A stretch of DNA of 42,691 nt. Source: Parachlorella kessleri (Eukaryota > Chlorophyta > Trebouxiophyceae > Chlorellales > Chlorellaceae). Positions 157-41,918 of this stretch are shown in pieces. The notes below the pieces were generated by a model. That model ran no database searches. It saw nothing but the letters and a program-made list of their open reading frames with translations, and had not been told where the DNA came from. Every line of letters starts with the position of its first letter. Within the stretch, counting starts at the first letter, position 1. A program made the position numbers and the translations under genes. The stretch covers positions 1-42,691 of the forward strand of contig BBXU01000741.1 in NCBI GenBank assembly GCA_001598975.1, written 5' to 3'.

Positions 157-2560
157 CCAACATTGTTGTCACCGCTGTTGCCGTCGCCGTTGTTGCTGCT
201 GCCGGTGTTGCCGTTGCCTTGGTTGCCGCTGCCGGTGTTGCCCTGGCCGACATTGTTGTCACCGGTGTTGCCCTGGCCATTGTTGTTATATCCAGTGTTG
301 CCCTCGCCGTCGTTGTAGGCACCAGTGTTGCCAGAGCCGCTGTTGTAAGCACCTGCAAAGAGTGGAAGAATAGTTTGGAAGCAGACTACCTGCCGCACAG
401 GAGAGCAGCTGCTTGGTTTTCACTGCTGCAACATGCATGGGACCCAGTAGACGAGGAGGCGAGGAAAATGTGTGCACAGATCTTGATAAATGATGGCTCA
501 CCAGTGTTACCCTGGCCCTGGTTTCCATTGCCGGTGTTGCCTTGGCCGTTGTTGTTGTTGCCAGAGTTGCCCTGGCCCTGGTTCTGGTTGCCGGTGTTGC
601 CCTGCAAGCAACAAGCAGTGCAAGCTAAGGCTGGGGCTTGACAGGCTAAGGCTTAACAGGACGCGCTAATAAAGCTCTAACAGGATAATAAGTGGAGGCG
701 AGCACCAACAGCGGTAGTGCGGCAGTGGATATGTTCGCAATTGCTGGCAGGTAGTAAAATAAGCTTGGCACACACCTGGCCATTGTTCTGGTTGCCAACA
801 TTGCCCTCGCCCTGGTTCTGGCTGCCGCTGTTGCCCTGGCCAACATTCTGGCTGCCGGTGTTGCCAGCGCCGATGTTGCTGCTGCCGGTGTTGCCCTGGC
901 CAATGTTGCCGGCGCCACTGTTGCCCTGCAGTAAGGAAAGCAGGTTGCCCATGCTTTTGTTAAAGCGGGGAAACCTCCAAGGACACTGTTACGCTGACAG
1001 TACATCCATGTTACGCTGTTACGCTGTTAAGCTGACAGTACATCCAGAAGGCAGACTGCGAGCAAGGTACCAAGCCTGTCAACACAAAACAGGTGCATGG
1101 CTGATGGATATTCATTGTGTGTTTAGTATGAAGCGCTCACCTCGCCTTCGTTGGCAAAGCCAACATTGCCGAAGGACTTAGCGTTGTGGTCGTTACCCAC
1201 GTTGTTGGAGCCAGCATTGTCGTCACCATTGTTGCCCTGCATATCAACAGGCTGCAGGTTCAGCAGCCATCACGTACAACCAACACACAATGTCGAGGGG
1301 ATATCTACCCAAATACAAGACCTCATGATTCTGTCAAACACAAGTTTCAGGTCAGAACACACATAGGACACAGGTATGCAGAGTACACCAACCAGGCCAA
1401 CGCACATTGCCAGAGTTGCCGTTCCCAATGTTGCCATGGCCGGTGTTGTCTGCACAGGAGAGCATGTGCGATTCGTCATGTGCATATTCGAGGAGTAGCG
1501 TCATGCATAACTTCATCACTAAGGACAAGGCACCACATTAGATATGCCCACACATTTGCACCAACGGTTTGTTTATGCCCCGCTGATGCACAAGACCCAA
1601 GTAGAGCATGCTGTATATCCTATCAAAGCAAACAAACCCCCTGCCCCCTCCACATTGCATGCAAACCAAGCAGCTGCTGGGACATTACCATCACTAGCCT
1701 GCCCCTGGCACTCACTCTTGCCAATGTTGCCGAGTTCGTCAGTCAGGCACTCCACAGGCACGTCAGCGGCGCCGCAGGCGATGTACAGGTAGCCAGGGCA
1801 GTCCTTGCCATACTCGCAGGTGGTAGAGCCATCCAGGGAGACGGTGCCCCATGTCCACCCCCAGCCAGCATATGGCTGCAGCTCATACTTCACTGCACCA
1901 GCATAGCCCTTGGCCCTGCAAAAGAGCCGGCAAGGGACACAGCGGCTGGTCAGGCCTGGCTGCAGTGGGATCCCCCAAGCTGCGAGAGCAGGCAAGAACA
2001 CAACGGCAGCAAAGGAAACAGAGGAGGAAGTCTGGTTCATAAGCTAGGGTACCGTAGGACCTCAGAGCTGGCAGAACAACCTCATGCTGGCAAAAAGACC
2101 TCATTGTGGCTGGAAGCTCGTGTGGAGTGGGCACACTCACACGCAGAAGTCGTCGGCGATCTTGCCATTCTTCTTGTCAGTGGACTTGCCCGAGTTCGCG
2201 GCCAGAATGGCGTGGCTGCTGTCGGAGGGGTTGGTGCTGCAGGCGGGCGGCAAGAAGAACAGACAATCAGCGTGTTGAGGAGTACATGCCGATAGGGTGT
2301 GGGCTGGGCGAGCTGCAAAACTTGGAGCAAAAGGCAGAACATAGCATAGACGCACAAAAGCAGAAAAGGGCAGAACACGAGGACGTCGCAGACCCAGGAT
2401 GTTATTGAGAAGTTTCCTGCGAGAACTTCACTCACTTGGGCAGCGCATAGACCTCCCACTCGCTCCAGTATGCGTCGCAACCGCCAGCCTTGAGTGTGCG
2501 GGCAGCATCTGCTGACAGGCACAATGCCAAGAGCAGCGCGGTGGCTGCAACACCCTTCAT
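157..2560 (-). CDS. Secreted XNXGX-repeat protein, copy A (partial, 3' end off window)
   Basis: Eight exons on the minus strand: 2560-2436, 2236-2141, 1915-1716, 1449-1406, 1236-1141, 925-776, 601-502 and 352-157. Together they give 335 codons plus 2 nt, and phase closes at every junction. Residues 1-20 are a signal peptide ([19 protein letters not shown]), followed by RTLKAGG. A diverged version of the B/C N-terminal domain follows ([34 protein letters not shown]). From exon 4 onward the protein is GNxGxxNxGx decapeptides. Exon 6 is exactly 50 codons, that is five decapeptides. Exon 8 matches exon 6 of copies B and C in length (196 nt) and phase. Compared with B/C there are extra introns (1450-1715 and 926-1140) and different repeat numbers. 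The last exon ends in phase 2 at GTGAGT and no continuation is visible in bases 1-156, so the 3' exons lie outside the window. Function is unknown; secretion is inferred from the signal peptide. Confidence 0.85.
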
Positions 2561-6180: not shown

Positions 6181-9100
6181 TTAGTTGCTGAGGCCCTGGC
6201 CGGACAGATTGTGACCGGTGTTGCCAGACCTGCAGGAACAGGGGCTGAGTGGTCACATGCCTCGCAAAGATGTTGCGAGTGAGGACGCCTACAACCGGGC
6301 AGCACAGTGGGGTTCCTGGCGAATTACCTGCTGCCTAAGCATACTTACCCTGCAGCAGGAGTATCCTAGCAACTCTGTGCAGTAGAGATAGGCAGTGACA
6401 TGCAGGTGACTGACCTACCAGAGCATTCCTGGACCAACCAGGAAAGGCTAGGCAAAGACGGCAAACAGTTATGTCAACCACCCCAAGAGGTTGCTTGCAG
6501 CGGGACACAAAAACCCTTTGCTCACCCACTGTTCTCAGCACCAGTGTTGCCCTCGCCATTGTTGGCATAGCCAGTGTTGCCAGAGCCATGGTTATCGGCA
6601 CCGGTGTTGCCCTGGCCGGCGTTGTTAGCACCGGTGTTGCCCTGGCCAATATTGTTAGCACCAGTGTTGCCCTCCCTGCAGGGTTAAACACCAAGGAACC
6701 ACTTGGCAAGGACACCTGTCAGGGACTGCCTGTGCTCTGTGCACAAAGCAGGTGTCACATAGAGGTGGGAACTCCAAGGCATCCATTCTACTGTGTTAAG
6801 GATGGGGTGAGGCTGTGATGAGCAGAGGGGTAGATGAACTTAGCTGCCTCGCAGTGCCAGCCACTATAGGCAGCAGCAGCCAAGCCGCTCACCCAATGTT
6901 CTTATCGCCGGTGTTGCCAGCTCCAATATTCTCATTGCCAGTGTTGCCGTCACCAGTGTTCTTGTTGCCGGTGTTGCCCTTGCCAGTGTTCTGGTTGCCG
7001 GTGTTGCCCTGGCCCGCGTTGCCGCTGCCAGTGTTGCCCTCACCCTTGTTGTTAGCACCAGTGTTGCCAGAGCCTGCAGGGCACAGGAGCAGCCAAGCAA
7101 GATCAAACTCTTCTTGAAGTGCGGGTTGCACACCTGCGGAAAGGTTGTCTTGCATATCTTCCACAGTCGCAGGTGTCCCCGTCAATGCATAGCCGGCCTG
7201 CTAGCCAGCAAAGCAAATGAGCGAGCAAAGGCCCTAGCGCGCTAAATTGCTGCCCTGCAACCTAATATGCCGTTGTCTCCTAGCACATGCCAGCACATGG
7301 CACCCGGGTGTGACAGGCACTCACCCTCGTTGCTGTCGCCGGTGTTGCCCGAGCCGTGGTTCTTGTTGCCGGTGTTGCCCTCGCCCTCGTTCTCATTACC
7401 GGCGTTGCCCTGGCCGTGATTCTTGTTGCCGCTGTTGCCCTGGCCCTCGTTCTCAGCACCGCTGTTGCCCTCACCGACATTCTTGTAGCCGCTGTTGCCG
7501 GCGCCAATGTTGCCATAGCCGGTGTTGCCAGCCCTACAAGCATTGCAAGCACGTGCGGGTCCATCAGGTTAGTTAAAGCCAGCAGATTGGCAAGAAGCCA
7601 AGGGGATGTGCAAGCGCAGCGCCCCGAGCAGAATGGGTTGTGCAGCACAGTGTGTAAGGTGTGAACGACATGCGAGGCGTATTGCAACCCCTGAGGCTGC
7701 ATGCAGTGTGAAACAGACATCAGCCCAGGTGACACGCAATGGATGGCAAGCTGCCCTGCAACGATTCTTCAGCAAGCATTGCATTCAATGTTCTCACCCA
7801 ATGTTCTTGACGCCGGTGTTGCCAGCGCCGGTGTTCTCAGAGCCGGTGTTGCCGTTGCCGGTGTTCTTGTCGCCGGTGTTGCCCTCGCCGTTGTTCTCAG
7901 CACCGGTGTTGCCCTTGCCAACGTTCTTGTAGCCAGTGTTGCCCTCACCCTCATTGAAGGCGCCGGTGTTGCCCTGGCCCTTGTTATAGGCACCTACAAG
8001 AGAGAGGGGATGACAATAGGCCATGATCCAAATTTGCAAGCATGCAGGCATGAGGCAGGCTTCACACCGCTTCACAGGCACGACCTCCCTAGCCCCTCAA
8101 ACAGATCTTATGAGTTTTCAAGGCGGCAAGAGGAGTTTGTCGCGGTACACCAAGGGACAGGTGTCAGTGCCAAAATCTGACTCTTACGGGTCAGCTCAGA
8201 GCAGTCAGAACAAGGAATGGGCATCGTTTGGGGGCATATAAGGCATATTAGGCTGTATGAGCGAGCCATCTACCTCCCTGACACAGAGCAAGATGTGAGG
8301 CTGACGGCTCACCAGTGTTGCCCTCGCCCTCGTTGCCGTTGCCGGTGTTGCCCTGGCCCTTGTTCTTGTTGCCGGTGTTGCCCTGGCCCTCGTTGGCGCT
8401 GCCCACGTTGCCCTGGCCGTTGTTGGCGTCACCAGTGTTGCCCTGGCCCTGGTTGGCGTTACCGGTGTTGCCCTCACCCTGGTTGGCGTTACCGGTGTTG
8501 CCCTGCAGGCGGCACAGGCAGGAGGCCAGACGTTAGGAAGAGCAAAGTAGTATGTGTTATAGAGCTACAGTGCCAACTGAGGTACTGGGCTGGCTGACAA
8601 AGTTGCTCCATGCAGACCTGTCTGCCAAGCACCAACTTGTATCACAGATTTGGCAGTAAGCACTCCATTGACACACGGTAGCAACTGCACGCTAGGAGGT
8701 ACTCACCGCGCCGACGTTGCCGCTGCCGCTGTTTCCCTGGCCCACGTTGCCGGTACCAGTGTTGCCGGCACCCACGTTCTTGACACCAGTGTTGCCCGCG
8801 CCGTCGTTGTAGAAGCCGGTGTTGCCGGAGGCGCCCTTGGGGTGGTCATCACCCACATTCTGGTCGCCGGCGTTGTTGTTACCTACGTTGCCCTGCAGCA
8901 AGCGGGAGACGACCAAGGGGGCTCAGCTGTTGCGTATGTGAACTGTCAGTGATGGAGGCATGCAGGAGCTTGCATTGAAGCAGCATGCAAGGCGCACACA
9001 GCTACACTGCACAGCATCCATCTGGTGTTATGGGTTTCCAAGCCTGGGCTAAGTGGTGGTTGATGATGTGCCAGATTCCACAAGTTGATGATAGTGTGGC

Positions 9101-10051
9101 ATGCATGGACCGCGTGCATGCAAGCCAACACGAGAAGCCGCACTCACGTCGCCTGAGTTGTAGTTGCCGACGTTGTTGGTGCCGGTGTTGCCATAGCCGA
9201 TGTTGCCCTTTCCGTCGTCGGCGCAGTTGGGGTCAGAGCTGGCCTTGCCGCACACAACATACAGGAAGGCGGTGCAGCCAGATGCGGCGCCGTAGGCGCA
9301 GGTGTTGCCCTGGTAGTCCTTGAGACCCCAGGTCCAGATCTGGCCAGCAAAGTTCTGGAGCTCGTAGGTCACAGAGGTGTCATAGCCCTGCTTCCTGCAG
9401 AGCGGCGAGGTACAGAGGAGACAGTGGGTGAGCTTTGGCTCGAAAGTCTTGGTTCTAAGGTCCTCGGTTGAGGTTTCTGCACACAACTTCCACAACAAAG
9501 CGCAGCCATGTTGTCTTGCGCTTCTGTAATATCGGCCTGCTTGGTGTTAGCAGCTGACATGATTCGCAAGTGCCAGAGAGCAGGATCAACCAGGTGGGTG
9601 CAGCCAACATGAGGTGCCACTACTCACTTGCAGAACTCATCAGCCTTGGCCTTGGTGTCAGCAGACTTCTGGGTGGTCCAAGTGGACGCAACCAGCAGGA
9701 TCTCCTTGCCAGTGCCAGGGGTGATGCTGGGCAAGGGATACACCCAGCAGGTGGCTGCAGCAGGGTGAACAGTGGAGGGTTGGTGGTGGAGGCGGTGCTC
9801 TTGTGTGATTTTAGCCACACCACAGGGCCACGCTACCATCATCTGGGATGTGGCCAACGGCGCTCTGAGCTGCGCAGCCTGTACTGGCCATTCTGCCCTA
9901 CAGACGCACTGTCAAGGGACTGCCCCAAATCCAGCAGTGGTCTCCTAGCCGCCCGACCACACCCACCTTTGTCAGCCGCCTTCAGCTGCCTAGCAGCGCT
10001 GGCAGACATGGCCGCTGCCAGAAGCAGCATGGACAGGGTGGCGAGCCGCAT
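6181..10051 (-). CDS. Secreted XNXGX-repeat protein, copy B (complete)
   Basis: Ten exons: 10051-9967, 9754-9628, 9394-9148, 8892-8707, 8502-8313, 7993-7798, 7533-7325, 7073-6893, 6675-6526 and 6229-6181. The sum is 1620 nt, 539 aa plus TAA, with phase consistent at all nine junctions. Residues 1-20 are a signal peptide ([20 protein letters not shown]), then RQLKAADK. Residues about 29-133 form an unrecognised domain with six cysteines ([53 protein letters not shown]). From residue 134 to the end there are about 75-80 XNXGX pentamers arranged as decapeptides GN(T/S)GxxNxGx, broken once by DDHPKGAS. Introns fall at Gly codons of the repeat. Against copy C, the coding length is identical and exons 1-8 are the same sizes, but C has one 199-nt last exon where B has 150+49 nt. 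The repeat matches the XNXGX description of Pentapeptide_2; an extracellular beta-solenoid role is inference. Confidence 0.95.
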
Positions 10052-11842
10052 GGTGGGTACCTGCGGCATAGCAGACGCCAGCTTGGTAACTCTATCCCGG
10101 ATGACTCTCCTTTGCCTACCAGTGTTCGACAGCAAGTTCTGGCGTGCTGCATCATGATGCATGCGACACAGATCTTGAAGGTGAGATAATGTTAGACCAC
10201 AAGTGTGCACACCACACCTTAGAATCCTTGTTCTGTAAAGTCTCACCTGATCGTGGTCGTAGATCAACGCAGATCCTGGTGCTAGCCGAGCCTCCTTTCA
10301 CAAGGGGCACAGGACTTCACACGATATAGGTGAAGAGCAAAATGGATGATCGGTGTCATGCGACTCGGTATTTCTTGCATCCGACTCAGCGCGTCAAACC
10401 CTGATTCAAACTTTCCCCTCTGGCGAACTGCGCGCGCGTCGCCGGCAGGCAGGAGGCGGGGCCGGCGACATTTCCTACGGCGATAAACACCCCGCCACCT
10501 TAAGGATTGGTACAACCCCCGCACAGTTCTCTTTGCGACTGCGACACGCCGGTGCCGGTGCTGCCCAGCGCTGATGTCATGGTCACGCATGCGTAGGCAG
10601 TGCACTCTGCAGGACAACCAGTGACCAAGATCTTTCAACTCCGCAGCCCACAGGGAGGATAGAGACCTCAATTTGTCCGCGCAGTCACGCAGCGGGATCT
10701 TCCCTCACGGCCTGGATCCATACCCACTGGGCGCCACCATGACAGGCGCAAGCCCTGGGCTGGATCAAGCCAGGATCAAGTCATATACCCGTATTTACAA
10801 ATGACTCTAGCCTTAAACCTCAGAGTTGTGCAGGAGAGGTGATTGCCTAGCCCAACTAGGTGGGCATGGGATAATACAAGACAAGCAGCAGGCCTCCCTG
10901 CCGAATTCTTCTTCCACTGAGAAACTGTGCGGTGGCGGTGCACATTAGAGACCACAGATGTCAGCTGTGCAACTGGGAGGGCTTGGAAGCAGATGCTGGC
11001 TGGTGGCAAAGCAGAAGTCTGACATGCTTAGGCCTGTGGGCACAAGCACAAACTGGAAGCTGGTACTGGTGAATCTGGGACCCTCCAGGGAAATCCGCCA
11101 GCATCTATTTTACAGAAGAAAACACCAGCACTAAAAAAACTCATGAGCGTACGGACCCACAGCGTGGGCCCAAAGAGCAAGAAAAAAAGCAGGTACCCAA
11201 TACGTCAGGCTAACAACGCTACGGCAGCACCATGGCAGGCAGGCTCCCAGCAAATAAATCATGCACCGGCTACAGAATTGCTAGTGTCTCGTGCGATGGG
11301 GTTACACTGCCGGACACAGGCCAGCAGAATGCAGCCCAATGAAATGGCATACTGGGCCCAAAAGGGGCCTCTCCTAGGCATGGCAACGGGAATGTGACCC
11401 TTTCTATGGCACGCCTCCGGCCTGCTTGAGCACAAACACAATGCAAAGTCGGCAAAAAAAAGACGAATGGATCGGACCCTGAGTTATAACATGAAAGCAA
11501 ACAAGCCTGCGCTGCAGCTGGTGTCGCACTGACATGGCCCTCAGGAAGCGAACAATGTAAATCACCACTTTAGGCCAGGAAGCAGCCATGGCTGAAGCCT
11601 TTTGACCGCTAATACTACTTCTACCCAACGATGCATGACTGCAGGATCACGAGACACCCAACCTACTCAGGCTATCAGCCACAACTCAGCTGGGGTCTGA
11701 GAAAACCGAGCAACAGGTTGCAGACGATGCACAAGCCCATACGACACTACTACCAGGCCACACTTTACACCCACGAACCGACCTCCCCCATAAAGGGCAG
11801 ACCTTGCTCCCTGGCCTTCGCTCCCTGCTCCTTCCTGTCAAT
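10052..11842. other. 1.8 kb intergenic region
   Basis: It holds the promoter and 5' UTR of copy B (nearest 10052) and the 3' UTR of the GGPP synthase. Immediately upstream of the copy B ATG the minus strand reads GCCGCAG then GTACCCACC, which looks like an intron acceptor 9 nt before the start and is matched in copy C. GC-rich blocks at about 10430-10490 and 10540-10565 could be promoter elements. I see no ORF with a recognisable product. Confidence 0.5.
11765..11769 (-). terminator. Putative polyadenylation signal (TGTAA) of GGPP synthase
   Basis: TGTAA on the minus strand about 75 nt after the stop codon. Other TGTAA motifs occur further downstream (near 11302 and 11110), so a longer 3' UTR is equally possible. 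Confidence 0.3.
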
Positions 11843-14828
<2,986 letters not shown>

Positions 14829-15478
14829 GGTGGCCTCGGAGAGCCCCGCTCGCTAGGAAGCCCTGCCTGGAAGGCCAAGAAGTCACGACGGGCACAGAGC
14901 CGCTAGGTTGCCGCAAAGCCAAGCGACTTCCGTCTGTCAGCTGATAGAGGTGCTGACGGATATCAAGATACGTCGAAGTCAGGGTCTCCAAGAGCAGTCT
15001 ATTGAATCCGTAGTGTTTGCCTGCGTCTCTTGCAGCAGGCAGCGAGGATGTTGGAAGATAACACCGCAGGGGCGAAGCATGGCGGGTCACGCACGTGATC
15101 TTCTTAACAGTGAGTAGACTGGTAGACGTGTGCTCAATGACATGGTGCTACATACTTGATTATATGACACGGCAACTGACACCGTGCCCACCTTGATAGC
15201 ACTTTGGGAGATGTCCACTTTGGCCTTATCCCAGGTGTTGCAATGCCAGCTCTCGGCAATGATCAAGGGAGCTCAGAGATGATAGGAAAGTAGCCAGGAT
15301 GAGAGCAACCTGCTGCAGCTTGCTGAGGGGTGCTAGAAAGCCCAACTGGGTAACTCTGCAACGTCAACAGTGGGTAACTCTGCAAGCCACCAGTGCGGAA
15401 AGCGGCTCGCCGCAATGCTTCCTGGCACGTGTGGCTAACACCTCCACTGCAGCGGGGGTCTAAACAGATGCACTAGCA
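14829..15478 (-). promoter_or_regulatory. Upstream region of GGPPS / 3' UTR of ZNF830-like gene
   Basis: This 650-bp gap separates two minus-strand genes. It should contain the GGPPS promoter and the 3' UTR of the ZNF830-like gene. I see no clear TATA box and no credible ORF. Confidence 0.4.
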
Positions 15479-18400
15479 TCAGAAAGCAGACTTCTTGGCC
15501 CTCCAGTCCAGGAGCTCTTCCGGCTCCTCCACATCGCTGTCTCCTTCGCTCATGCTATCCCTTTCCAGCTCCGCAAGCGTGTCAGCCACCTGCGCAGTAA
15601 CATATATGTCAGTACCTCACCAACTGCAAAGATGTACGCAAAGGCTCGCTTACAAGCCAACTTCCGCGGGACTTCCATGGCATCTTCTGGCCAGCCTATG
15701 CAATCACAACGGCGCTGATACCGTCCGCAATACCTCAAGTACAGTCACTGTCAGGCTTTGACAACCAGCTCCCATGCCCCACAGGATTTTTTTTTTCGTT
15801 ATAAAGTTTGGCGACCTTTGGCTCCGCCCATGGCACAGAAAGTTACTTTGGAGCCAAACCTTGGCTCCAGGAAACCTGATTTTGGCTCCGGGGGTTGGCT
15901 CCAGGTTCTCAGAAATTTGGCTCCTGGTTTGGCCCTGGGTGTTGAAGCTGCCCCGGTGTTGCTCCTTGGACTTGTTGCTTGAAAGCAAGTGGGATCAGGG
16001 TGTGTCTGTTCGCATGAAACCATGCCTGAAACCTAGCTGGATCATTAAAAGGATCACCCACTACACCAGATTTGACCAGACAGCTTGCAATCTTGCTGTC
16101 CTGGCGTCCTGTACTGGCGATATGGCGGCTGATTCTTGGCACCAGTTTGGCTCCGCGCCTTCGGCGCACCTGTGGAAAATCGCCATAAAATTTGGCGACG
16201 CCGCTTATGCGTCGTCGCCTAACAAGCCTCCCAACGCTCATTTTGTCGCCAGAAGTTGGCGAAATCGCCAAAAAAAAAAAACTGAATGCCCCAGTGCCAC
16301 AGCACATGAGCGCCCATGTGCCTGCAACACAAGCTACGCAACAGCACATCGCCTACACTTGCCTTACGCTTCTTGGGGAGCTGGATGGCAGGCATGCTCA
16401 CGTCTGGGTCGCTCACAGCTGCTCTTGCACTGGCGGCAAGGTCGTCTGAAGGCTCCTCAGCGCCTGCGGGCCCTGCTGCTTTGGCACGCCTCAGGTCCTC
16501 TATCCGCTGCAAGCGTACTCTGCAGCAATGGGACGGGTTCCAGGTTCCACAGGTACTGCCAGGAAGTTTGAGCAAACGATGCAAACCAGCGCCACATGTG
16601 TGCACAACAGTTGCTAACATTATGGTTGCTTACAAAATTAACCATGCTTGCACAGGGTATGCCGCAAACACAGTCTGAAGTCTAGCCTTCAGGGGACAAC
16701 CGCACGCGTTTTGCAGTGATAAGTACGGGTATACGAGCCGGCATGCAGTCTACTTACATATGCTCAAACTCCTCCCTGTCTTGCTTGTCAACTGCCTCTG
16801 CCGCATCTTCCGCCGCTTTCTGTGCTGCTGCCTCTGCTGCATCAGCGTCCACTTGCTTCAAAAAGTCTGCAAACTCCTATAACAGGTAACAAAGGCAGCG
16901 TCAGCCACGCCGCCACAACAGAGGGTGGCAACGCAAAGCAAGTAGGGTGGCACGGCGGCAAGGCAGCCGCTGCAAAGCGCAAGTGCTGCTCATACCTTTC
17001 AGCCTGGCAAACTCTCGGCACATGCCCTGGAAGAAGCGAACTTCAGTCAAGCCACTTTCATAGTACCCAGGATCATTAACATTACTCCCAGACTGGCCAG
17101 GCTAGGCATGTAATTGTTCCCATTCGGGTTGACCCAGTGGCAAATGGCTGGCACCCCACCTTGTCCATCTCTTTCTTCGTCTTGGGAACCTCCCCTCGTG
17201 CCTTGGCATCAGCTGCCTTGTCTTCAAAAAACCCTGCAGGATGCCAGCTATAGTGGTGAGCAACGACGTCACAGCATGAGAGTGATGCCACCCGGCCAAA
17301 CGCATAGCCTCAAGCGGCGGGGGCATGGCGCCCAGAGCCACATTACCATACCGCCTGCGAACATGCAGCGAAGTCCACCAAGCCTCGGGCAACGTCAGAA
17401 AGCTGTCACCCAGCGTTCAGCAGGGCTACGATCAAGAACGGTCCCAAGGGAACAGTTTTCACAAACCTTGCCCTCTACAGGCTGAAGGCTACATGCCAAA
17501 AGCATGCAGGGCAACCTATATTGAGCAATGGTATGCCACCGCAAGCACCAGCCAGACGGCCCTGGGGCCAGCTTACCTTTGGGCAGCGCAGCCCCTGGTC
17601 CTGGTGCTCCGTTGCCAGCTGCGGCGCCCCTGGTGTGCCCACTGCCGCCCTGCTCAGGAGGAGGGCTTGATACCACCCCTGCATCGACGGCGCTCAGCGC
17701 AGCGGCTGCCTCATCGAAGAACCCCGCTGGCACTGTCGAGGCAACGGACGGCTGCCCCCTCATCGCAGCTTGCTGCTGGCTGCTGAGCGGAGAGGTCAGG
17801 TCTGCAGAACCACCAGCGGCCCCTGCCACAGCACCTGCGAACCAGGCAGAGCTCCTTGCAAATTAAAGCGTGTTCCTATACGACCCACGGATCAGCCAAG
17901 AACCAGTGTGCCTCCCTGGGCTACCCACTCTGAGAGAGCCCGGAGGCTTGGCTCAGTCGGGTTGACAGGATTTTTCCCGCCATTCCTGCCTACCTGAGGA
18001 CCCTTCCAGCGACACAGCCGCCTCAACCTGCTGCTGCGGTGCACCTCCTTCTGCTGCCTCCGCTGCTGCTGCGGGCACATCTCGAGGCATCGCTGCTGCT
18101 GCAGCTCCACTGGAACCCGCTATAGAGGCGGCATTGCTGCCCGGAAAGATACCAGCAGTGGAGCGTACAGAGCCTTGGCGAGAAGCTGCCGCTGCCTGTG
18201 CCAGGTGGGGTCCTTGGTTCACCGAGGGCTCCGGGTGGGCGGAGGGCGCTGCACCGCCACCGTTGTACATGCGTGTGGCTTGGGAGTCTGCATGGAATGA
18301 GGCTGCAGAGGGCTGCTGCGATGGAGGCTTGGAGGACGGCTGCCGCGGCGGCGGCGGGGGCATCGTGCCTGCATCCCTCTCGGCACCCCGCCCGGCAGCC

Positions 18401-18771
18401 GGGGCGGACTGCAGGCACACACCAAGGGTGGTGCACCATTCGTAGGCTGAACCAGCACTGCTTATATAAAACACCCTGCAAGCTCGGTTGAAACACTCAA
18501 CAACTAGCCAGCTGCTAGATACCCTTAGCAGAATACTCCTTGACACACCCGTCCAGCAAGCGGTGGTGCTGTTGCTTTTTGCGCCTTCAGAGCCTTGATT
18601 TGCTCCTTTGACTGCAGGGAGGGGGCAGGGAGGCAGCAAACCTTGATCAAACGCGACCACCAGACTTGGGATAGGAAATCCAAAGCCCATTCCTCCACTT
18701 GCCAGTTTCTGCGGACCCCCTCTGGCTGACTTGGCTGCTTTAAAGAGGCTTTTGAAGTCCTTGTCGGACAT
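15479..18771 (-). CDS. ZNF830 (CCDC16)-like nuclear protein
   Basis: Probable exons: 18771 to about 18703 (3' end uncertain), 18611-18549, 18408-17994, 17834-17577, 17233-17160, 16876-16758, 16519-16363 and 15589-15479. This gives about 421-435 aa. Family features visible are two GFFD-type motifs (VPAGFFDEAA, and LPKGFFEDKAADAKARGEVP followed by KKEMDKEF), an acidic/Ala coiled coil (EFADFLKQVDADAAEAAAQ, REEFEHIVRLQRIEDLRRAK), a basic KKRK, and the C-terminal SEGDSDVEEPEELLDWRAKK. The order and the final DWR motif match plant and animal ZNF830, a pre-mRNA-splicing and genome-maintenance factor. The middle (exon 3) is low-complexity Pro/Ala/Ser/Gln. I cannot find the family's C2H2 zinc finger. 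The exon 7 donor fits only as a GC-AG intron (AAG|GCAAGT). That last intron carries a MITE. The N-terminal MSDKDFKSLFKAAK and exon 1/2 join are the least certain parts. Confidence 0.8.
15774..16293. mobile_element. hAT-like MITE (non-autonomous) with 8-bp target duplication
   Basis: A 504-bp insert (15782-16285) is bracketed by the direct repeat ATGCCCCA at 15774-15781 and 16286-16293. The left end starts CAGGA-T10 and the right end, read in reverse complement, starts TCAG-T-run (A12 at 16270-16281), so the termini are imperfect inverted repeats beginning with CAG. An 8-bp duplication plus CAG termini is the hAT signature. There is no transposase ORF. The interior has six copies of TTGGCTCC and several GGCGA(C/A) motifs near both ends. 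It sits wholly inside the last intron of the ZNF830-like gene. A SINE with a poly(A) tail on the minus strand is the alternative. Confidence 0.6.
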
Positions 18772-19038
18772 GGTCAGCAGTAGAGGAGTTTGTCACATGG
18801 AACTATCGAAGCTGCATGATGAGGATCAGAACCCACTGTGTTGAGTCGTCACAACTTGCCTGTAAGATAGACTATGTGAAAGCTGTGCTGATTACCCGCC
18901 AGCGCGTAGACCGTCTCAACTCACATTCCATTAAAGTTAATAGTATCATTCCCTCATCAGGACTCAGTGTGACACAAAAGGGTTGCAAGGGTTCATTGAT
19001 ACACTAATGTAAATGTGGTGACACTTTGTGATCAGGAC
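18772..19038. promoter_or_regulatory. Short bidirectional promoter region
   Basis: Only 267 bp separate the ATG of the ZNF830-like gene (minus) from that of ALG10 (plus), so both 5' UTRs and core promoters must share this segment. No clear TATA box is visible. It is more AT-rich than the flanking exons. Confidence 0.55.
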
Positions 19039-20989
19039 ATGATGACGCTTGTAACGCCCTTGGTCGTTGGCTTGGCTCTTGTCACGACAGTGGGGTACCT
19101 TCTATTTCAGTCCCTCGCGCCTGAAGCGTACATGGTAGGCTGCTGCTTGGCCACCAACTCTCTACTCTGGCCGAACCACGGGGGTTCTCCCAGTCAAGGG
19201 CACCAAACTGACTTCGCCGTATCCTCCTTGACAGGACGAGATATTCCACGTTCCTCAGACTCAGAGGTACTGCGCTGGACAGTGGGCAGCGTGGGACCCA
19301 AAGATAACAACTTTTCCTGGCCTCTACCTCCTGGGCGTGGCCTTTGGTCGAGCCGCTGGTGCCTTTGCCAGTCTACAAGGCCTGCAGGTGATAACAAGCT
19401 CGGTCGCTACGAACTTGCCGGCTGGCTTGACACACTCCTTTCCCTGCCCAGGTCCTCACATAAGCTAGTGCTCGAGCCCGCAATAACCCTGGCATGTCGA
19501 GCTCCACACCTGTGCCGTATTTGCTGCAGATAGACGAGTGCAGCACAGCTGTCTTGAGGGCAGTTAGTTCAGTATTTGCGGTCGCTTGCGGACCCCTGCT
19601 TTATTTGCTGAACAAGGCCATCAACCCTGGCTGCAGCAGCGACGTTCAAGCCACACTCTTTGTGAGCAATATCAGAACCCTCATGCTTCTGCCATTTCTT
19701 AAATGTTGTATCCTCGACCCACCAAGCCATGTCAGTGCACAGCAACCCCTGGAGCTCCTTGACCATCTCACTGCACTGATTGCTGCCTCCCCACTGTGGT
19801 TGCTGTCTTGATGGGGCTGGTTTATATGCTCTTCCACTGCCTAGCAGGAAGGATAGCAGCATGCCAGCCTTCGTTGATTTGGCATCATGGCTTCCCAGCT
19901 GGCCTGGCGTGCTTGCAGGCGTTGGCTTGTGCGCTCTTCCCACTTCACTACTTCTATGCCTTCCTTTACTACACCGATGTCCCTTCTCTCTTCTTCACCC
20001 TGGCAGCCTACCTAGCTACAAAGCAGCGCAGGGGAAGCCTTGCTGCAGTACTGGCCGCTGCCGCGGTTCTCATGCGGCAGACAAACGCAGTCTGGGTAGT
20101 GTTCATTGTGGCTGACGCAATCCTGGACCGCTGTCAACCAAGGAAGCCCTTGAAGGCTGGCTGCCAGTGGCAGGAGGGCAGTGGAGGTGGCAGCAACGGC
20201 GGCCGCGTTGAAACCTGGGACAGCACGGTGGCAGAGCAGAGATTGCAGGACCTTCCACGAGTGCTGGCAGCCACGTTGCGGCAAGCTTGGGTTCTTAGGT
20301 GGGAGCTACTTCAGCAGCTCTGGGGTTTGGCGGCAGTGACAGCCAGCTTTGCAGCCTTCGTGCTTTGGAACGGAGGCGTAGTAGTGGGGGACAAGGCCCA
20401 CCATACGCCCGTGAGGCACTTGGTGCAGCCCCTCTACTTTGCCCTGTACAGTACTGGCTGGCTGGCACCGGTCTTTTGGTCGCCGACAGCGCTCTGGGCA
20501 GGGCTTCGTGCGGCTGCTAGGGCAGGGCCGGCACAGTGGGCCTTGGTAACCATTATCGCCAGTGCAGCGGCAGCAGCTGTGCAGCGAGCCACCCTAGTTC
20601 ACCCTTTCCTGCTGGCTGACAACCGTCACTATACCTTTTACCTCTGGCGGAGAGTGCTGAATCGGCGGTGGTGGGTGCGGTATGCTCTGGTGCCACTCTA
20701 TGTGGCGGCGGTGGCACAGTTGTGGAGCAGGGTTCAGCACAAGGGTCTTCTATGGCAGGCCTTGTTTGCTTGCAGTGCGTGTCTGGTGCTGGTTCCAGCG
20801 CACCTTGTTGAGTTTAGGTATTACACTGTACCATTTATGATCCTTTTGCTGAACATGCGGCCGCCCAGCACTAGGCAGCTGGCTTTGTTGGTGGCTGGCT
20901 ATGCTGTGGTCAACTGTGCTACTGTTGCTGTGTACCTCTTGAGGCCGTTTGTGTGGGTCGATGGCACTATCGCTCGTTTCCTATGGTAG
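19039..20989 (+). CDS. ALG10: Dol-P-Glc:Glc2Man9GlcNAc2-PP-Dol alpha-1,2-glucosyltransferase (ALG10)
   Basis: Four exons: 19039-19134, 19235-19387, 19530-19661 and 19919-20989. The sum is 1452 nt, 483 aa, all junctions in phase 0. ALG10 adds the third and last glucose to the lipid-linked oligosaccharide in the ER membrane before N-glycosylation. Signature segments are [17 protein letters not shown] then [14 protein letters not shown] (residues about 33-65), [59 protein letters not shown] and [16 protein letters not shown]. The protein is strongly hydrophobic with many membrane spans, and its length is close to the human enzyme. A GTG-initiated extension upstream is possible in frame, but the first in-frame ATG (of two adjacent) is taken. 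The Gly/Ser-rich [11 protein letters not shown] segment is a lumenal or cytosolic loop insertion. It is divergently paired with the ZNF830-like gene. Confidence 0.96.
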
Positions 20990-21489
20990 TGCGGAACAGT
21001 TGGCAATTACGCCGCTTCGTCCTTGTCGCCGGCGAGGTTTTCCGCGAAGGGCGGCGCGCTCGGCAGGGTTTTACGCCGGGACCCCCGGCCCCTGTTCTTA
21101 AAGCGTAGCTGAGCCAGCCCTGTTATTAGCTCAACATTTGCACTGTTGGCCTGTTGACCGTGTGAGTGTGTGTCAACCTTGTGAGGGAAGGTCGCCGGCA
21201 TCTCGCATCTACCATCTGACTAGAACTGCTCGTCAGGTGCGAGACTGAGACATCTTGATTTCTTCTGACTTTAATGGCATACTCTAGCTTTATTCAAGCC
21301 TGATCTTGAGAAGATCTCAATATTTCGAAGTCATGGCGCCTTGTTGGCGCGTCATGCTCGAAGGCTGTCGTCGGCTAGATCCCTTCACCTTTTGCCCTTC
21401 TGCCTCACGTGTGGGGGAGTCTGGATCAGCCCGTGCAGCATTGAGCTTTCTCTGAGGGGTCTCACCTGCTTGTTGTGCAGGTGCCCACC
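20990..21489 (+). promoter_or_regulatory. Intergenic: ALG10 3' UTR and promoter of copy C
   Basis: 500 bp between two plus-strand genes. A GC-rich patch (21015-21105) follows the ALG10 stop. Right before the copy C start the sequence is TGTTGTGCAG (acceptor-like, ending 21480) then GTGCCCACC and ATG, mirroring the layout at copy B, which suggests a 5' UTR intron. A 64-codon minus-strand ORF here (21201-21007) has no support. Confidence 0.4.
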
Positions 21490-24400
21490 ATGAGGTTCGC
21501 CACCCTGTCAGTGCTGCTGCTGGCAGCCGCCATGTCTGCGAGCGCTGCTAGGCTTCTTAAGGCAGCTGACAAGGGTGAGCTCTTGTTGAGAATGCCTCCT
21601 GAGGACTGTATGTTTGACAATGGACTGGATGTTAGCTTAATTATAAATGACAGCCCCTGGGCCACGCTGAAATATCCCTTCGCCGTCGCCCTTTTGCAGA
21701 CACCTGCTGGGTGTACCCCTTTGCCAGCATCACCCCTGGCACTGGCAAGGAGATCCTGCTGGTTGCGCCCACCTGGACCACAGAAAAGTCTGCCATCACC
21801 AAGGCCCTGGCCGACCAGTTCTGCACGTGAGTACCTCTCCAACCCTACGATGGGCGACCTGGCGCTGCCGCCCTGCACCATAAAGCTGTCAGGGATCTGG
21901 TATCTGAGGTCAAAGCTGCCAAGCTGGCTGCCTTGAGCTGTCATATTGGTGCCCCAACTCGCGAGCCACATCGGTGGGCCGTAGCTGACTCACTGTGTGT
22001 TCCTCCCTCACCCCTTGCCGCTCTGCAGGAAGCAGGGCTATGAGACCTCTGTGACCTACGAGCTCCAGAACTTTGCTGGCCAGATCTGGACCTGGGGCCT
22101 GAAGGACTACCAGGGCAACACCTGCGCCTATGGTGCCGCATCCGGCTGCACCGCCTTCCTGTACGTTGTGTGCGGCAAGGCCAGCTCTGACCCCAACTGC
22201 GCTGCTGACAGCACGGGAAACATCGGCTATGGCAACACCGGCACCAACAATGTCGGCAACTACAACTCTGGCAATGTGAGTGGTGGGCCTCTTTCTACTG
22301 CGGCATGCATGCATGTGTCCTGCATGCCAGACTATCATTGAAGTTGTGGAATCTGGCCTTCGACAACCGCAGCTAAGCCCCAGACCTGCAAGCCTATAAC
22401 ACAGGTGGATGCTGTGCAGCATTGCACAGTGCCCCTTGCATGCTGCTGCAATGCAAGCTCCTGCATGCCTCCATCACTGACAGTTCACATACGCAACAGC
22501 TGAGCCTCCTTGCCCATCTCCTTCTTGCTGCAGGGCAACGTTGGTAACAACAACGCCGGCGACCAGAATGTGGGTGATGACCACCCCAAGGGCGCCTCCG
22601 GCAACACCGGCTTCTACAATGATGGCGAGGGCAACACCGGTGTCAAGAACGTGGGTGCCGGCAACACTGGTACCGGCAACGTGGGCCAGGGAAACAGCGG
22701 CAGCAGCAACGTCGGCGCGGTGAGTACCTACTGGCGTGCCATGTGTCAATGGGGTGCTTACTGCAAAGTTGTGATGCAAGTTGGTGCTTGGTAGACAAGT
22801 CTGCATGGAGCAACTTTGTCAGCCAGCCCTGTACCTCAGTTGGCACTGTAGCTCTATAACACATAAGTATTTTGCTCTTCCTAATGTCTGGCCTCCTGCA
22901 TGTGTCGCCTGCAGGGCAACACCGGTAATGCCAACCAGGGTGAGGGCAACACCGGTAACGCCAACCAGGGCCAGGGCAACACTGGTGATGCCAACAACGG
23001 CCAGGGCAACGTGGGCAGCGCCAACGAGGGCCAGGGCAACACCGGCAACAAGAACAAGGGCCAGGGCAACACCGGCAACGGCAACGAGGGCGAGGGCAAC
23101 ACTGGTGAGCCGCCAGCCTCACGTCCTGCTCGTATGCGCATGGGCTCGGATGCTTTCTGGGCCAATATGGCTTGTTGCGGCAGCAGTGGACCTCGTGAGT
23201 GAGCAGGTCCCCTGACTGCACCTGTTTTGTGGTCCTGAAGGGCTGGCTCCCACAGGTTATGCCAATTCCTACTCTGAGCGGACCTGAAAGAGTGTGAATG
23301 AATGTATGTGACAGTCTAATTTTGTCGCCTGCATGACTCATGATCTGCTTGATGAAGGGCGTCTTGCCTCTCTGTGAAGCCTGCCTCATGCCTGCATGCT
23401 TGAACTTACTGACCATAGTCTACTCCCCTCTCTCCTCCTGCAGGTGCCTTTAACAAGGGCCAGGGCAACACCGGCGCCTTCAACGAGGGTGAGGGCAACA
23501 CCGGCTACAAGAACGTTGGCAAGGGCAACACTGGTGCTGAGAACAATGGCGAGGGCAACACCGGCGACAAGAACACCGGCAATGGCAACAACGGCTCTGA
23601 GAACACCGGCGAGGGCAACACCGGCGTCAAAAACATCGGGTGAGTTTGTTTTTAGTGCATTTCCTGCCAAAGTTTGGTTGTGGGGCAGCTTGCCATCCCT
23701 GGAGTGTCACCTTCACACTGCACGCAGCCGCAGGAGGTGCGGTACACCTCACCCGTCTTCACACTTAGTACACTTTGCTGCACAGCCCACTCTTCTGCTT
23801 AGGGCGCTATGCTTGCACTTCCCCTTCAGCTTCTTGCCAATCTGTCAGCATGAGTCAGCATGACGAACCCGGTACTTGTGGGTAATGCTTGTAGGGCTGG
23901 CAACACCGGCTATGGCAACATTGGCGCCGGCAACAACGGCGACAAGAACGTGGGCGAGGGCAACACCGGCAGCAGCAACCAGGGCCAGGGCAACAGCGGC
24001 AACCAGAACAACGGCCAGGGCAACACCGGCAACCAGAACGAGGGCGAGGGTAACACCGGCAACAAGAACCACGGCTCGGGCAATACCGGCGACAGCAATG
24101 AGGGTGAGTGCCCGTCACAGCTGGGTGCCTTTTTGGCATGTGCTAGGATAGGAGACGACGGTGGTGCATATTAGGTTGCAGGGCACCAATTTAGCGCGCT
24201 AGGTCCTGTGCTCGCTCACGTGCTATGCTGGCTAGCTGGCCGGCTATGCATTGCGTTTGGCACACCCGAGACTGTGGAAGCTGAAATGTGTGCAAGGCTT
24301 GTATCGCAAGTGTCGCACACGCACTTCAACAAGACTTTGATCTTGCGTGGCTGATTCTGTACTATGCAGGCTCTGGCAACACAGGTGCTTACAACAAGGG

Positions 24401-25017
24401 TGAGGGCAACACTGGCAGCGCCAATGTGGGCCAGGGCAACACCGGCAACCAGAATAGCGGCAACGGCAACACCGGCAACCAGAACCAGGGCGACGGCAAC
24501 ACTGGCAACCAGAACATAGGCGCCGGCAACACTGGAGACAAGAACATTGGGTGAGTGCCTATCATAGCTGGGTGGTTTACTGTTTCCCTTGCCAACGCCA
24601 GTCACCAGGATGACGGTCTCAAAAATAGCAGTTGGAAGACCCTTTGTATTAATTCTGACTGCCTGCACAATGGTTGCTCCATGACATTACATGCGCAAAG
24701 AGAGAGGGTCCGGCTCTGAACCGGCGGTGTGTGTGCTCTGGCTGGCGGCTTGCCTGATTCTGTGACACCAATCTCAGGCTCGCTGTACCTGACCGGCTCT
24801 CCTATCTTGTTCCTGCAGGGAGGGCAACACTGGTGCCAACAACGTCGGCCAGGGCAACACCGGCGCCAACAATGCCGGCCAGGGGAATACTGGTGCTGAG
24901 AACCATGGCGCTGGCAACACCGGCTTCCAGAATAATGGCAGCGGCAACACTGGTGCCAACAACAGCGGCGTCGGCAACACTGGCTCTGGGCTCAGTGGCG
25001 AGGGCCTCAGCAACTAG
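21490..25017 (+). CDS. Secreted XNXGX-repeat protein, copy C (complete)
   Basis: Nine exons: 21490-21574, 21700-21826, 22029-22275, 22534-22719, 22915-23104, 23444-23639, 23895-24103, 24370-24550 and 24819-25017. The sum is 1620 nt, 539 aa plus TAG, with every phase closing. Residues 1-20 are a signal peptide ([20 protein letters not shown]), then RLLKAADK. The N-terminal domain (29-133) carries [39 protein letters not shown] and [13 protein letters not shown], with six cysteines. Residues 134-539 are GN(T/S)GxxNxGx decapeptides, with DDHPKGAS as the one clear interruption and [11 protein letters not shown] as the C-terminus. Exon sizes 1-8 are identical to copy B; exon 9 equals B exons 9+10 fused. 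Exon 5 encodes the same peptide as in B. Introns 3 and 4 are also visibly similar to those of B, so this is an inverted segmental duplicate or is kept alike by gene conversion. Repeats match the XNXGX (Pentapeptide_2/MPTR) pattern. The function is unknown and likely extracellular. Confidence 0.96.
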
Positions 25018-38925: not shown

Positions 38926-41918
38926 ATGAGGCGGATGAGCCTGCTGATCGTGCTCCTGGCTCTGGCCGCCGTGGCTCAGGGTAGGTCGGGCTGCCCAGTA
39001 GGGACGGTGGTCTGCTTGCTTCCTACTTGCTGGTATTCCTGGCACACTCTTCAAGGCAACAGTCCAGCACGGACACAAGGCAGGACTGGTAATGTGTGAC
39101 GTTAAGCAAGGGTTCGTGGCATTTCTTGACCGATTCGGGTGCAAAGGCCTGGCTGCATGAGCAGAAGGGATGCTGATTGAGAGCATGGCTGTACGACTAA
39201 AAAGACAAACCCTTTCTTTGATGTCCTTTGGCTTCCAAATGCAGTCAAGTGTCCTGCACATCCTTTCCTGCAGGGCGCCTGCATAGCCATGCAGGCCATG
39301 GTGGCTTGGGCTGTGTTTCTGCCCTCATATTGCTCAGCATTGGTGCATGCAGGCCGCCACCTCCTCCAGGCCGCTGCTGCTGATGCCATGGCCCTGGCCC
39401 AGTCTGCCGGCTTCCCGCCAATCAATTTCCCATCATCACAAGCCAGTGCCATTGCCCAAGCCAATGCCCAGGTCAGTGCAACACTACAATCAAGACGTAT
39501 GATCAAGTTGCAAGCCAGGCCCGCCTTGCCTTACGACATGCATGAGACTGGGCAGGCTGGCTATGTGCTGTCATGGGGCAAAGAGGGAAGGCTTGCAAGA
39601 GCATCGTCTGTGAGGCCATACACTATGAACCCATGCGGCAATGCAGGCCTCTGGCGGCGGTGGTGGCAGTGGTGGCGGCGGCAGCGGCGGCGGAGGGTGC
39701 AGTGCACAGGTAAGCGGAGCATCAAGGCTCATGTAAATAGCCATAGCCTGGCCCGGTGACAAACCTGGAAACTTGACATCTGAAGTGTGACCAGCGTAGG
39801 TCCACTACTAGCGCAGGAGTGCATAACGGCCGTGCCCGGGGTAGCCTCCCTCGGCTGTGAGTGTGACTGTGCACTGCACTGCAGGCCTCCTCACTTGCGA
39901 GCGCCCTGGCATCTGGTAGGTTCTCTGGCCTCTCACTGATCATTGGCCTTGCTGCTAGTGCGAGCTGACCGCTGCCATGTCGCCCGTCAAGGTGACCTAG
40001 GGTTTGAGAGAAGGGTACCGCATGCTGTACCCCGGCTGACTGCATGCAGGAGGGAGCTCCTTTGCTCAGGCAGCTGGCTCAGCATATGCTGCTGGGTAAG
40101 TTCTGGGTTGGAACTTCCCTTTAGCCCAGTCTGGTCACACCTGAGGGGATTGAGCGCGCCGCCCCCTTTCACTGTGTTGACAGTCAGCCGGAAAAGGCCC
40201 GATGGACGGACAGGAGGGTTGTATATGTGGGCCGCTTGAACTGTTCTGCAGAGGTGATTGCACGCCGGGCGTGTGCCATGGGGGGTGCTGTGCACTACCT
40301 TGCAGCTGTATGTACCCGCTGGTGACTGCCAGAGCGGGTTGGAAGGATTGGATTGCCATCCGTACTTGAGCGATGCACTGTGCAGGTGTGGGACTGCTGT
40401 AGCCGACACCCTGGCAACGGTGAGGGTGACGGCCTGGCATGGCGGTGATGAGAACCAAGTCTTGACAGAAGCATGACAGGCTATTGACGATGCTCTGCCT
40501 TGCTTGATTGCCCCTTTGCTCATCCGCAGCCATGCAGGCTGCTACCACCTCCTGCCCTCTCTTCTGGCATTCGCCAGCAGGCCTTCTACTCTTCAGATTC
40601 TTAAGGGCAGCCAAGCGGCCACTGCCGGAATATTGCCCACTTTGCAGGCAATTACTAACGGCCAGGGTAGCGCAGCAGCTCAGGCTGCAGCCTCGGCGTA
40701 TGCTGGTAAGCCTCCATGTATATGACACTCGTTTATTGTAGTTCCATGCCATTGAGTGTTTCCCTGTCAACGAGGACACAGGGGACCTCGCCAATTTCTC
40801 GTGACACTTCTAACTCCTGGTCACCATTTCCGACAGTGACACCTGCCTGCTCTGGCTGTTGCAGCTGGACAGCAGGGTGTGGCACAGGCATTTGCACAGG
40901 TGAGCAGGGTTGAGGGTTTTCCGCCGTGGGTCTGGCCCCCTTTGTGGCGCCACATAACGAGCGCTGCCAGTATCTCTGCTCTTTAGTGCGGTAAAGGGTC
41001 TGACTGGCTGCTGCCAGCAAGCTGAAACCCACCCACTCCACGAGCTCCAACAAAACTCTGCCTGAGACCTTGGCAACCGCGGGTGCTGTGCAGGCAGCCG
41101 CTCGTGCGGCTGGCTCTAATGCCAGTGCCTCTGCCCAAGCCATCGCAAGTAAGCCGCTGCTGATCTCTCCATCTCAGCTTCTGTAGTCATCCTGTGTGTA
41201 TGTTCACACCCGGGCATGCAGAGTTGCTGGCCTGCCATTTTTGAGCATGCATCAGCTTAGGAGCTGCAGGCGGCCCCACCTGCATCTCCCAGGCCCTCCA
41301 CTTGTTTACTATTGGCGCTTCGCTTTTGTGCACTGCAGGCGCTGCATCCCAGGGGGGTGGCTTCAGTTATGCTTTCGCGAGTGCCGCTGCCTCCGCTGCG
41401 GCCTCCAACAAGGGAGGTGAGTCCAGCCAGATTGGACCCTCTTGTGTGACTCTCTTCGCTGCCTCCCTCCCCCGCTGCCCTGTTGCTGCTTTAGTCACCA
41501 TGCTCAACAACTCGGACGCTGACCTTTCGCTTGTAGCACCCACACCAAATTTTAACACATTCTTGCCTCCCCGCCCGGATGTGCAGGGTTCTGCCAGGCA
41601 CTGGCCAGTGCTCAGGTGAGAACACTGTCATCCCCCACCTGTGCTCAACCACAGTGCGCAGCAGCACGTGTGCTAGGGCCACCGGCAGGGGCGGACCGTA
41701 AGCATGTCGAGGCATGGCTCAGCTTGGCCTGACGCTTTGCCTGCTTGGTGTGCTGGCTCTTGCATTGTACAGTCCACAAACCAAGGCGCAAGAGCCCACT
41801 AGCACTTCCGCTCGTTCCCTTGACACGCCCCTGACTGCATTTGCAGGCTTCAGCCTCGGCTTCCGGCGGTGGTGCTGCCAGCGCTTTGGCACAGGCCAAG
41901 GCATCTGCTGGCTGCTAA
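38926..41918 (+). CDS. Secreted Ala/Gly/Ser/Gln-rich silk-like protein, micro-exon gene
   Basis: Twelve exons: 38926-38980, 39353-39471, 39647-39709, 39885-39915, 40050-40095, 40386-40419, 40597-40705, 40865-40899, 41094-41148, 41339-41416, 41587-41615 and 41847-41918. The sum is 726 nt, 241 aa, with phase agreeing at all eleven junctions. Residues 1-19 are a signal peptide (MRRMSLLIVLLALAAVAQG), then RHLLQAAAADAMALAQSAG. The mature chain is low-complexity: SQASAIAQANAQ, then GGGGGSGGGGSGGGG followed by Cys, SSFAQAAGSAYAAGCGTAVA, GSAAAQAAASAYAAGQQGVA, SNASASAQAIASAASQGGG and ASASASGGGAASALAQAKAS, ending Gly-Cys. Four cysteines are in the mature part. Poly-Ala/Gly-Ser blocks alternating with Gln and Tyr recall structural silks, although homology to them is not implied. 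Several exons are 29-35 nt. I cannot exclude an extra exon in 40096-40385, although none is needed for phase. Confidence 0.8.

Follow-up and report, generated by a model that had tools for sequence, protein, structure and literature searches.

Genes B and C and their products

Two genes of a family of apparently secreted repeat proteins, termed B and C, lie in a contig of the green alga Parachlorella kessleri. The whole contig (42,691 nucleotides; the window) was analysed, and it is labelled C449 in the contig set of the P. kessleri genome. Both genes were assembled from the window DNA. Gene B has 10 exons on the minus strand (10051..6181) and gene C has 9 exons on the plus strand (21490..25017). 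Each encodes 539 amino acids followed by a stop codon, all of the introns are GT-AG and neither model contains an internal stop. The two genes are in divergent orientation with about 11 kb separating their starts, and the stop codon of B ends at position 6181 and that of C at position 25017. The layout is common to both: a predicted signal peptide, a six-cysteine domain and 78 XNXGX pentapeptides.

In gene B, the putative signal peptide, read from the sequence, is encoded by exon 1 (9967..10051). The first part of the cysteine domain is found in exon 2 (9628..9754), and its remainder and the first repeats in exon 3 (9148..9394), as placed by the model and the domain alignment. The remaining exons are given by the model. 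Exon 4 (8707..8892) carries repeats and a 12-residue insertion, which recurs near the start of the array in genes A to E. Repeats fill exon 5 (8313..8502), exon 6 (7798..7993), exon 7 (7325..7533), exon 8 (6893..7073) and exon 9 (6526..6675), and exon 10 (6181..6229) encodes the C-terminus and the stop. Gene C is arranged in the same order on the plus strand, with the signal peptide, likewise read from the sequence, in exon 1 (21490..21574), the cysteine domain in exon 2 (21700..21826) and exon 3 (22029..22275), the latter also holding the first repeats, and the insertion among the repeats of exon 4 (22534..22719). Exon 5 (22915..23104), exon 6 (23444..23639), exon 7 (23895..24103) and exon 8 (24370..24550) consist of repeats, and exon 9 (24819..25017) combines repeats with the C-terminus and the stop. 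In A to F, the signal peptide is followed by an R-x-L-K/L motif, which could be a processing site; it is also present in an unrelated open reading frame at 39181-39759 (GRHLLQ).

All of the exons of C are matched by a database protein. When the protein database was queried with the C domain, one protein was returned from 45 candidates, N2152v2_001003 of P. kessleri, which is 100% identical over the domain; B itself was absent from the matches returned by this search. The C model is identical to residues 301-839 of N2152v2_001003 (539 of 539 residues), and B shares 488 of its 539 residues with that protein. A separate annotation, that of N2152v2_001003 at NCBI, therefore joins the same exons. 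Residues 1-300 of N2152v2_001003 derive, in truncated form, from the ALG10 glucosyltransferase gene upstream of C (19763-20989, plus strand; PF04922 at 284.9 bits). Since the ALG10 reading frame carries its own stop, N2152v2_001003 is most likely a chimaera created by an annotation error.

The repeat array and its register

The pentapeptides of B and C occupy residues 134-168 and the unbroken stretch 176-530, which contains 71 of the 78. Pfam assigns the repeat to Pentapeptide_2 (PF01469), with 259.1 bits in C (E 1.2e-78) and 115.0 bits in A, a third copy of the gene (E 1.3e-33); the curated cut-off for a whole protein is 26.4 bits. The cut-off is also passed by the database proteins P0002 (39.1 bits), P0012 (34.8 bits) and P0013, the product of gene J (32.8 bits), and P0003 and P0014 score under it (18.0 and 19.3 bits). 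The P. kessleri genome contains 34 PF01469 matches at E <= 0.001, spread over six contigs. Among 14 control genomes a match was found in one, that of Methanosarcina acetivorans.

Because only C was used to define the decapeptide register, nothing in that choice compelled B to be unchanged; the comparison excluded the insertion and the final nine residues. At positions 1, 2, 4, 7 and 9 of the decapeptide, 0 of 195 residues differ between B and C; at the five others, 33 of 195 do. The codons of the first set differ by 25 synonymous and no nonsynonymous changes, and those of positions 3, 5, 6, 8 and 10 by 29 synonymous and 33 nonsynonymous changes (Fisher p 4.2e-7). This contrast between the presumed core positions and the others means that a register is under selection. 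Over the entire genes, dN is 0.057 and dS is 0.290, and the values for the repeat (0.055 and 0.280) and for the domain (0.065 and 0.266) are alike.

The nucleotide identity of B and C is unevenly distributed. It is highest in exon 4 (96.8%), exon 5 (98.9%) and intron 4 (92.3%), and it amounts to 77.4% in exon 9. Five of the eight introns compared are 74-79% identical and three are 85-92% identical; shuffled copies of one pair gave 70%. The similarity of the segments that span exons 4 and 5 with intron 4 (8313-8892 in B, 22534-23104 in C) greatly exceeds that of the gene ends, a pattern which suggests local gene conversion, as this would produce it.

The substitution test and the published predictions for PF01469 both point to a beta-solenoid with ten-residue coils. 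A ten-residue-coil solenoid is given for PF01469 in a published assessment (PMC9663297), and four prediction methods are described as concurring on a solenoid (PMC11795689). Two AlphaFold2 models of family members have mean predicted local distance difference test (pLDDT) values of 44.0 and 46.2. The model of P0001 has bridges every five residues, with block pLDDT of 76-87 (residues 441-470) and 65-87 (481-510), and confident bridges of this kind are limited to short stretches of the first model. The solenoid suggested in the original prediction, which was made from this DNA alone, finds support in the published predictions and in the pattern of substitution, but the two models are mostly of low confidence.

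The cysteine domain and the gene family

The domain that precedes the repeats contains six cysteines in each of A, B and C, and it is probably held together by three disulphides. The domains of A to H align around the motifs FC...GY, C... and C..f..(V/I)xC. Residues A36, F39, C40, Y45, C74, C79, C87 and N103 (numbering of the D domain) are invariant among them, and pairwise identities range from 25% to 94%. The domain gave no significant match to a Pfam model or a PDB sequence: Pfam named no family in the B head given alone and found nothing significant in a scan of eight heads (best E 0.17), a PDB sequence search with the C head returned chance-level matches only (best E 0.18), and a PDB profile search with the head returned none.

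The P. kessleri genome (50.9 Mb, 1642 contigs) was searched with C, D, F and G, and the protein database was searched as well. Ten genes with the cysteine domain were found: A, B and C in the window, D on contig C286, E on C285, F (P0003) on C806, G (P0004) on C438, H (P0002) on C1044, J (P0013) on C534 and K (P0014) on C904. Five database proteins were tied to their loci by exact 8-residue words, over 417 of 417, 216 of 216, 399 of 400, 370 of 370 and 204 of 204 residues. Among the matches listed, 5 of 17 database proteins are named P. kessleri (P0001, P0003, P0004, P0013 and P0014), and such word-limited matches do not prove restriction to the P. kessleri lineage. The longest pentapeptide run is 71 in B and C, 31 in A, where it is cut by the contig end, 24 in D, 21 in E, 12 in G, 9 in H and J, and 4 in F and K. 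The predicted number of coils ranges from about 2 to 35 across the family.

Gene A (157..2560, minus strand), placed by its model, Pfam and the domain alignment, is a shorter and diverged copy. It has eight visible exons (2560-2436, 2236-2141, 1915-1716, 1449-1406, 1236-1141, 925-776, 601-502 and 352-157). Its 3' end lies past the contig end, which leaves only about 200 repeat residues visible. A further gene, I, at the start of contig C448 (1-2530), is visible only in its repeats, which are of the GNQGQ type, with Cys residues near the C-terminus. This could be either a further member or the part of gene A that the window lacks.

Other members depart from this layout. In J, the order is a Cys-rich N-terminus, a stretch of 56 residues of which 23 are Pro and 11 are Ser, the cysteine domain and short repeats. 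F and H have several CC-rich repeats (CC..K....YDP.C....C..W.P..H) ahead of the cysteine domain, for which Pfam named no family. D and E, whose cysteine domains are 94% identical, lie on opposite strands of consecutively numbered contigs and are possibly another inverted pair. P0002 (source lgn) equals H over all 398 residues of the H model. Its source contigs are at most 1827 nt long, and the exons of H with their introns cover 3187 nt of the genome; P0002 is therefore likely to be a spliced transcript of H.

The original prediction had described three secreted copies, intron-split, with Pentapeptide_2 repeats behind an unfamiliar six-cysteine domain. The cysteines, the repeat class and the unfamiliarity of the domain were confirmed, as was the splitting by introns, through the GT-AG boundaries and the identity of C with N2152v2_001003. 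The three copies are present; A lies outside the interval 6181..25017 and is cut off by the contig end, so that about 200 of its repeat residues can be seen, and the family is larger than three.

Proposed role of the proteins

The reading favoured here, with about even confidence, is that B, C and their relatives are secreted solenoid-rod proteins of the cell wall or extracellular matrix, graded in length. The signal peptide would direct them out of the cell, and a compact, disulphide-held head would sit as a cap at one end of a stiff rod. This rod would be a beta-solenoid in which every GN(T)GxxNxGx unit makes up a single coil of ten residues. The core and the turns would be formed by Asn (positions 2 and 7) and Gly (positions 1, 4 and 9), and positions 3, 5, 6, 8 and 10 would face outward. 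The number of repeat-bearing exons would set the length of the rod, which would be about 17 nm in B and C at the usual solenoid rise of 4.8 A. The head would most likely attach to a polysaccharide of the wall, to exopolysaccharide or to a partner, which the rod would space or cross-link.

A Pro/Ser-rich stretch such as that of J is a hallmark of algal hydroxyproline-rich wall glycoproteins. The repeat part of C has 3 N-glycosylation sequons as against a shuffled mean of 14.8, despite about 26% Asn, although the repeat motif by its nature disfavours sequons. According to PMC5381895, P. kessleri is coated by exopolysaccharide. It is the combination of signal peptide, cysteine head, repetitive outward surface, graded lengths, few sequons, Pro/Ser-rich sister and exopolysaccharide-coated alga that favours a role in the matrix or wall.

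Several observations weigh against this role or the rod. Neither transcript nor proteome or localisation evidence came to light for A, B or C, nor any ligand evidence for the head. Among the ten members, the Pro/Ser-rich stretch is found in J, with a trace in K only. Scans of members with Pfam gave no wall domain, whether pherophorin or other, the pherophorin domain being absent from A, C, P0002, P0003, P0012, P0013, P0014 and the heads of B, D, E and G. The pLDDT is below 50 in 641 of 839 and in 138 of 216 residues of the two AlphaFold2 models, and AlphaFold2 is said in PMC11795689 to over-predict solenoids for perfect repeats.

Of the alternatives, an adhesin or lectin is the strongest and carries a minor though appreciable share of the probability. 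On this view, a particular glycan, carried by other cells, by hosts or bacteria or by surfaces, would be bound by the head, for which the solenoid would be no more than a projecting stalk. In agreement with this, the head has diverged between subfamilies (25-51% identity) as the rod motif stayed constant, segments of the head are rich in Trp and Tyr, and the length of the rod varies among members. It is unlikely that the repeat is a disordered, low-complexity Gly/Asn-rich linker without a fold, maintained by repeat expansion. Gly and Asn make up 56% of the C repeat and the pLDDT is below 50 over most of it, but such a linker would hardly be expected to keep an exact register across 71 pentapeptides. 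Against it, too, 0 of 195 residues changed at the presumed core positions and 33 of 195 elsewhere, with 25 synonymous changes in the codons of the unchanged positions.

Ice binding or inhibition of ice recrystallisation through a Thr ladder at position 3 is improbable. At this position Thr is found in 32 of the 39 decapeptides in C and in 31 of the 39 in B, where it would be stacked at one per coil, and TxN or TxD occurs in 14 of 78 pentapeptides, a faint likeness to the repeat of a bacterial calcium-dependent antifreeze protein. Ice-binding beta-solenoids, however, have a regular two-rank TxT array. This array is absent from B and C, where TxT is found in 2 of 78 pentapeptides each and Thr at position 8 in 4 of 39 and 2 of 39 decapeptides, respectively; the outward positions other than position 3 hold mixed polar residues, in a count that includes overlapping pattern matches. 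Thr is lacking at the ladder position in F, H, J and K, and B and C disagree at position 5 in 5 of the 39 decapeptides. Gene I has TxT in 5 of its 36 pentapeptides, so that the idea is weakened only. Least credible is a sulphur-free nitrogen or storage protein laid down in the wall: the repeat parts of A, B and C lack Cys and Met and contain about 25-29% Asn, but those of D and E contain Cys, and the conserved register, conserved head and graded lengths are not needed for storage. Among the roles suggested in the original prediction, adhesion and wall structure thus keep their place and ice binding has lost ground.

These proteins can be set beside several known systems. Mycobacterial PPE-MPTR proteins share the PF01469 repeat, for which a prediction of a ten-residue-coil solenoid was published (PMC9663297). 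The algal proteins differ from them in their cysteine head and signal peptide, in being eukaryotic and intron-split, and, for B and C, in a strict decapeptide with Thr at position 3. The PPE domain (PF00823) was not found: with matches allowed up to E 1, C and A gave PF01469 only, and the B head gave nothing. The hydroxyproline-rich wall glycoproteins and pherophorins of chlorophytes resemble the family as an extracellular green-algal group, a setting that would be shared, and in the Pro/Ser-rich linker of J; A, B and C, on inspection of their sequences, are without a Pro-rich stretch. Pentapeptide_1 proteins such as MfpA and Qnr, which are DNA mimics, have a five-residue period and a solenoid, but a different motif, and the algal setting would be a secreted one. 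Their A(D/N)LXX motif and the GGxGxD nonapeptides of RTX beta-rolls each gave 0 matches in 12 sequences. About 100 pentapeptide-repeat genes are reported in the related green alga Auxenochlorella (PMC12633428), a likeness by description only, as the passage concerned states neither the pentapeptide class nor secretion.

The genes form a real, selected family, in which a known repeat class has a new architecture and setting. More tentatively, the family may represent an undescribed class of green-algal matrix proteins, in which an orphan six-cysteine head is joined to the shortest predicted type of beta-solenoid as a molecular ruler, with its length set by the number of repeat exons, and which arose independently of the mycobacterial PPE-MPTR proteins. 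The best-studied XNXGX examples are mycobacterial; natural versions with a cysteine head, apparently secreted and graded in length, are found here in an alga. CRISPR editing of this alga has been reported (PMC10916037), and with the length-graded natural versions it makes the predicted ten-residue-coil solenoid directly testable. If the proposed role is true, the coat of this industrial alga, which is known for its exopolysaccharide, would gain a protein component.
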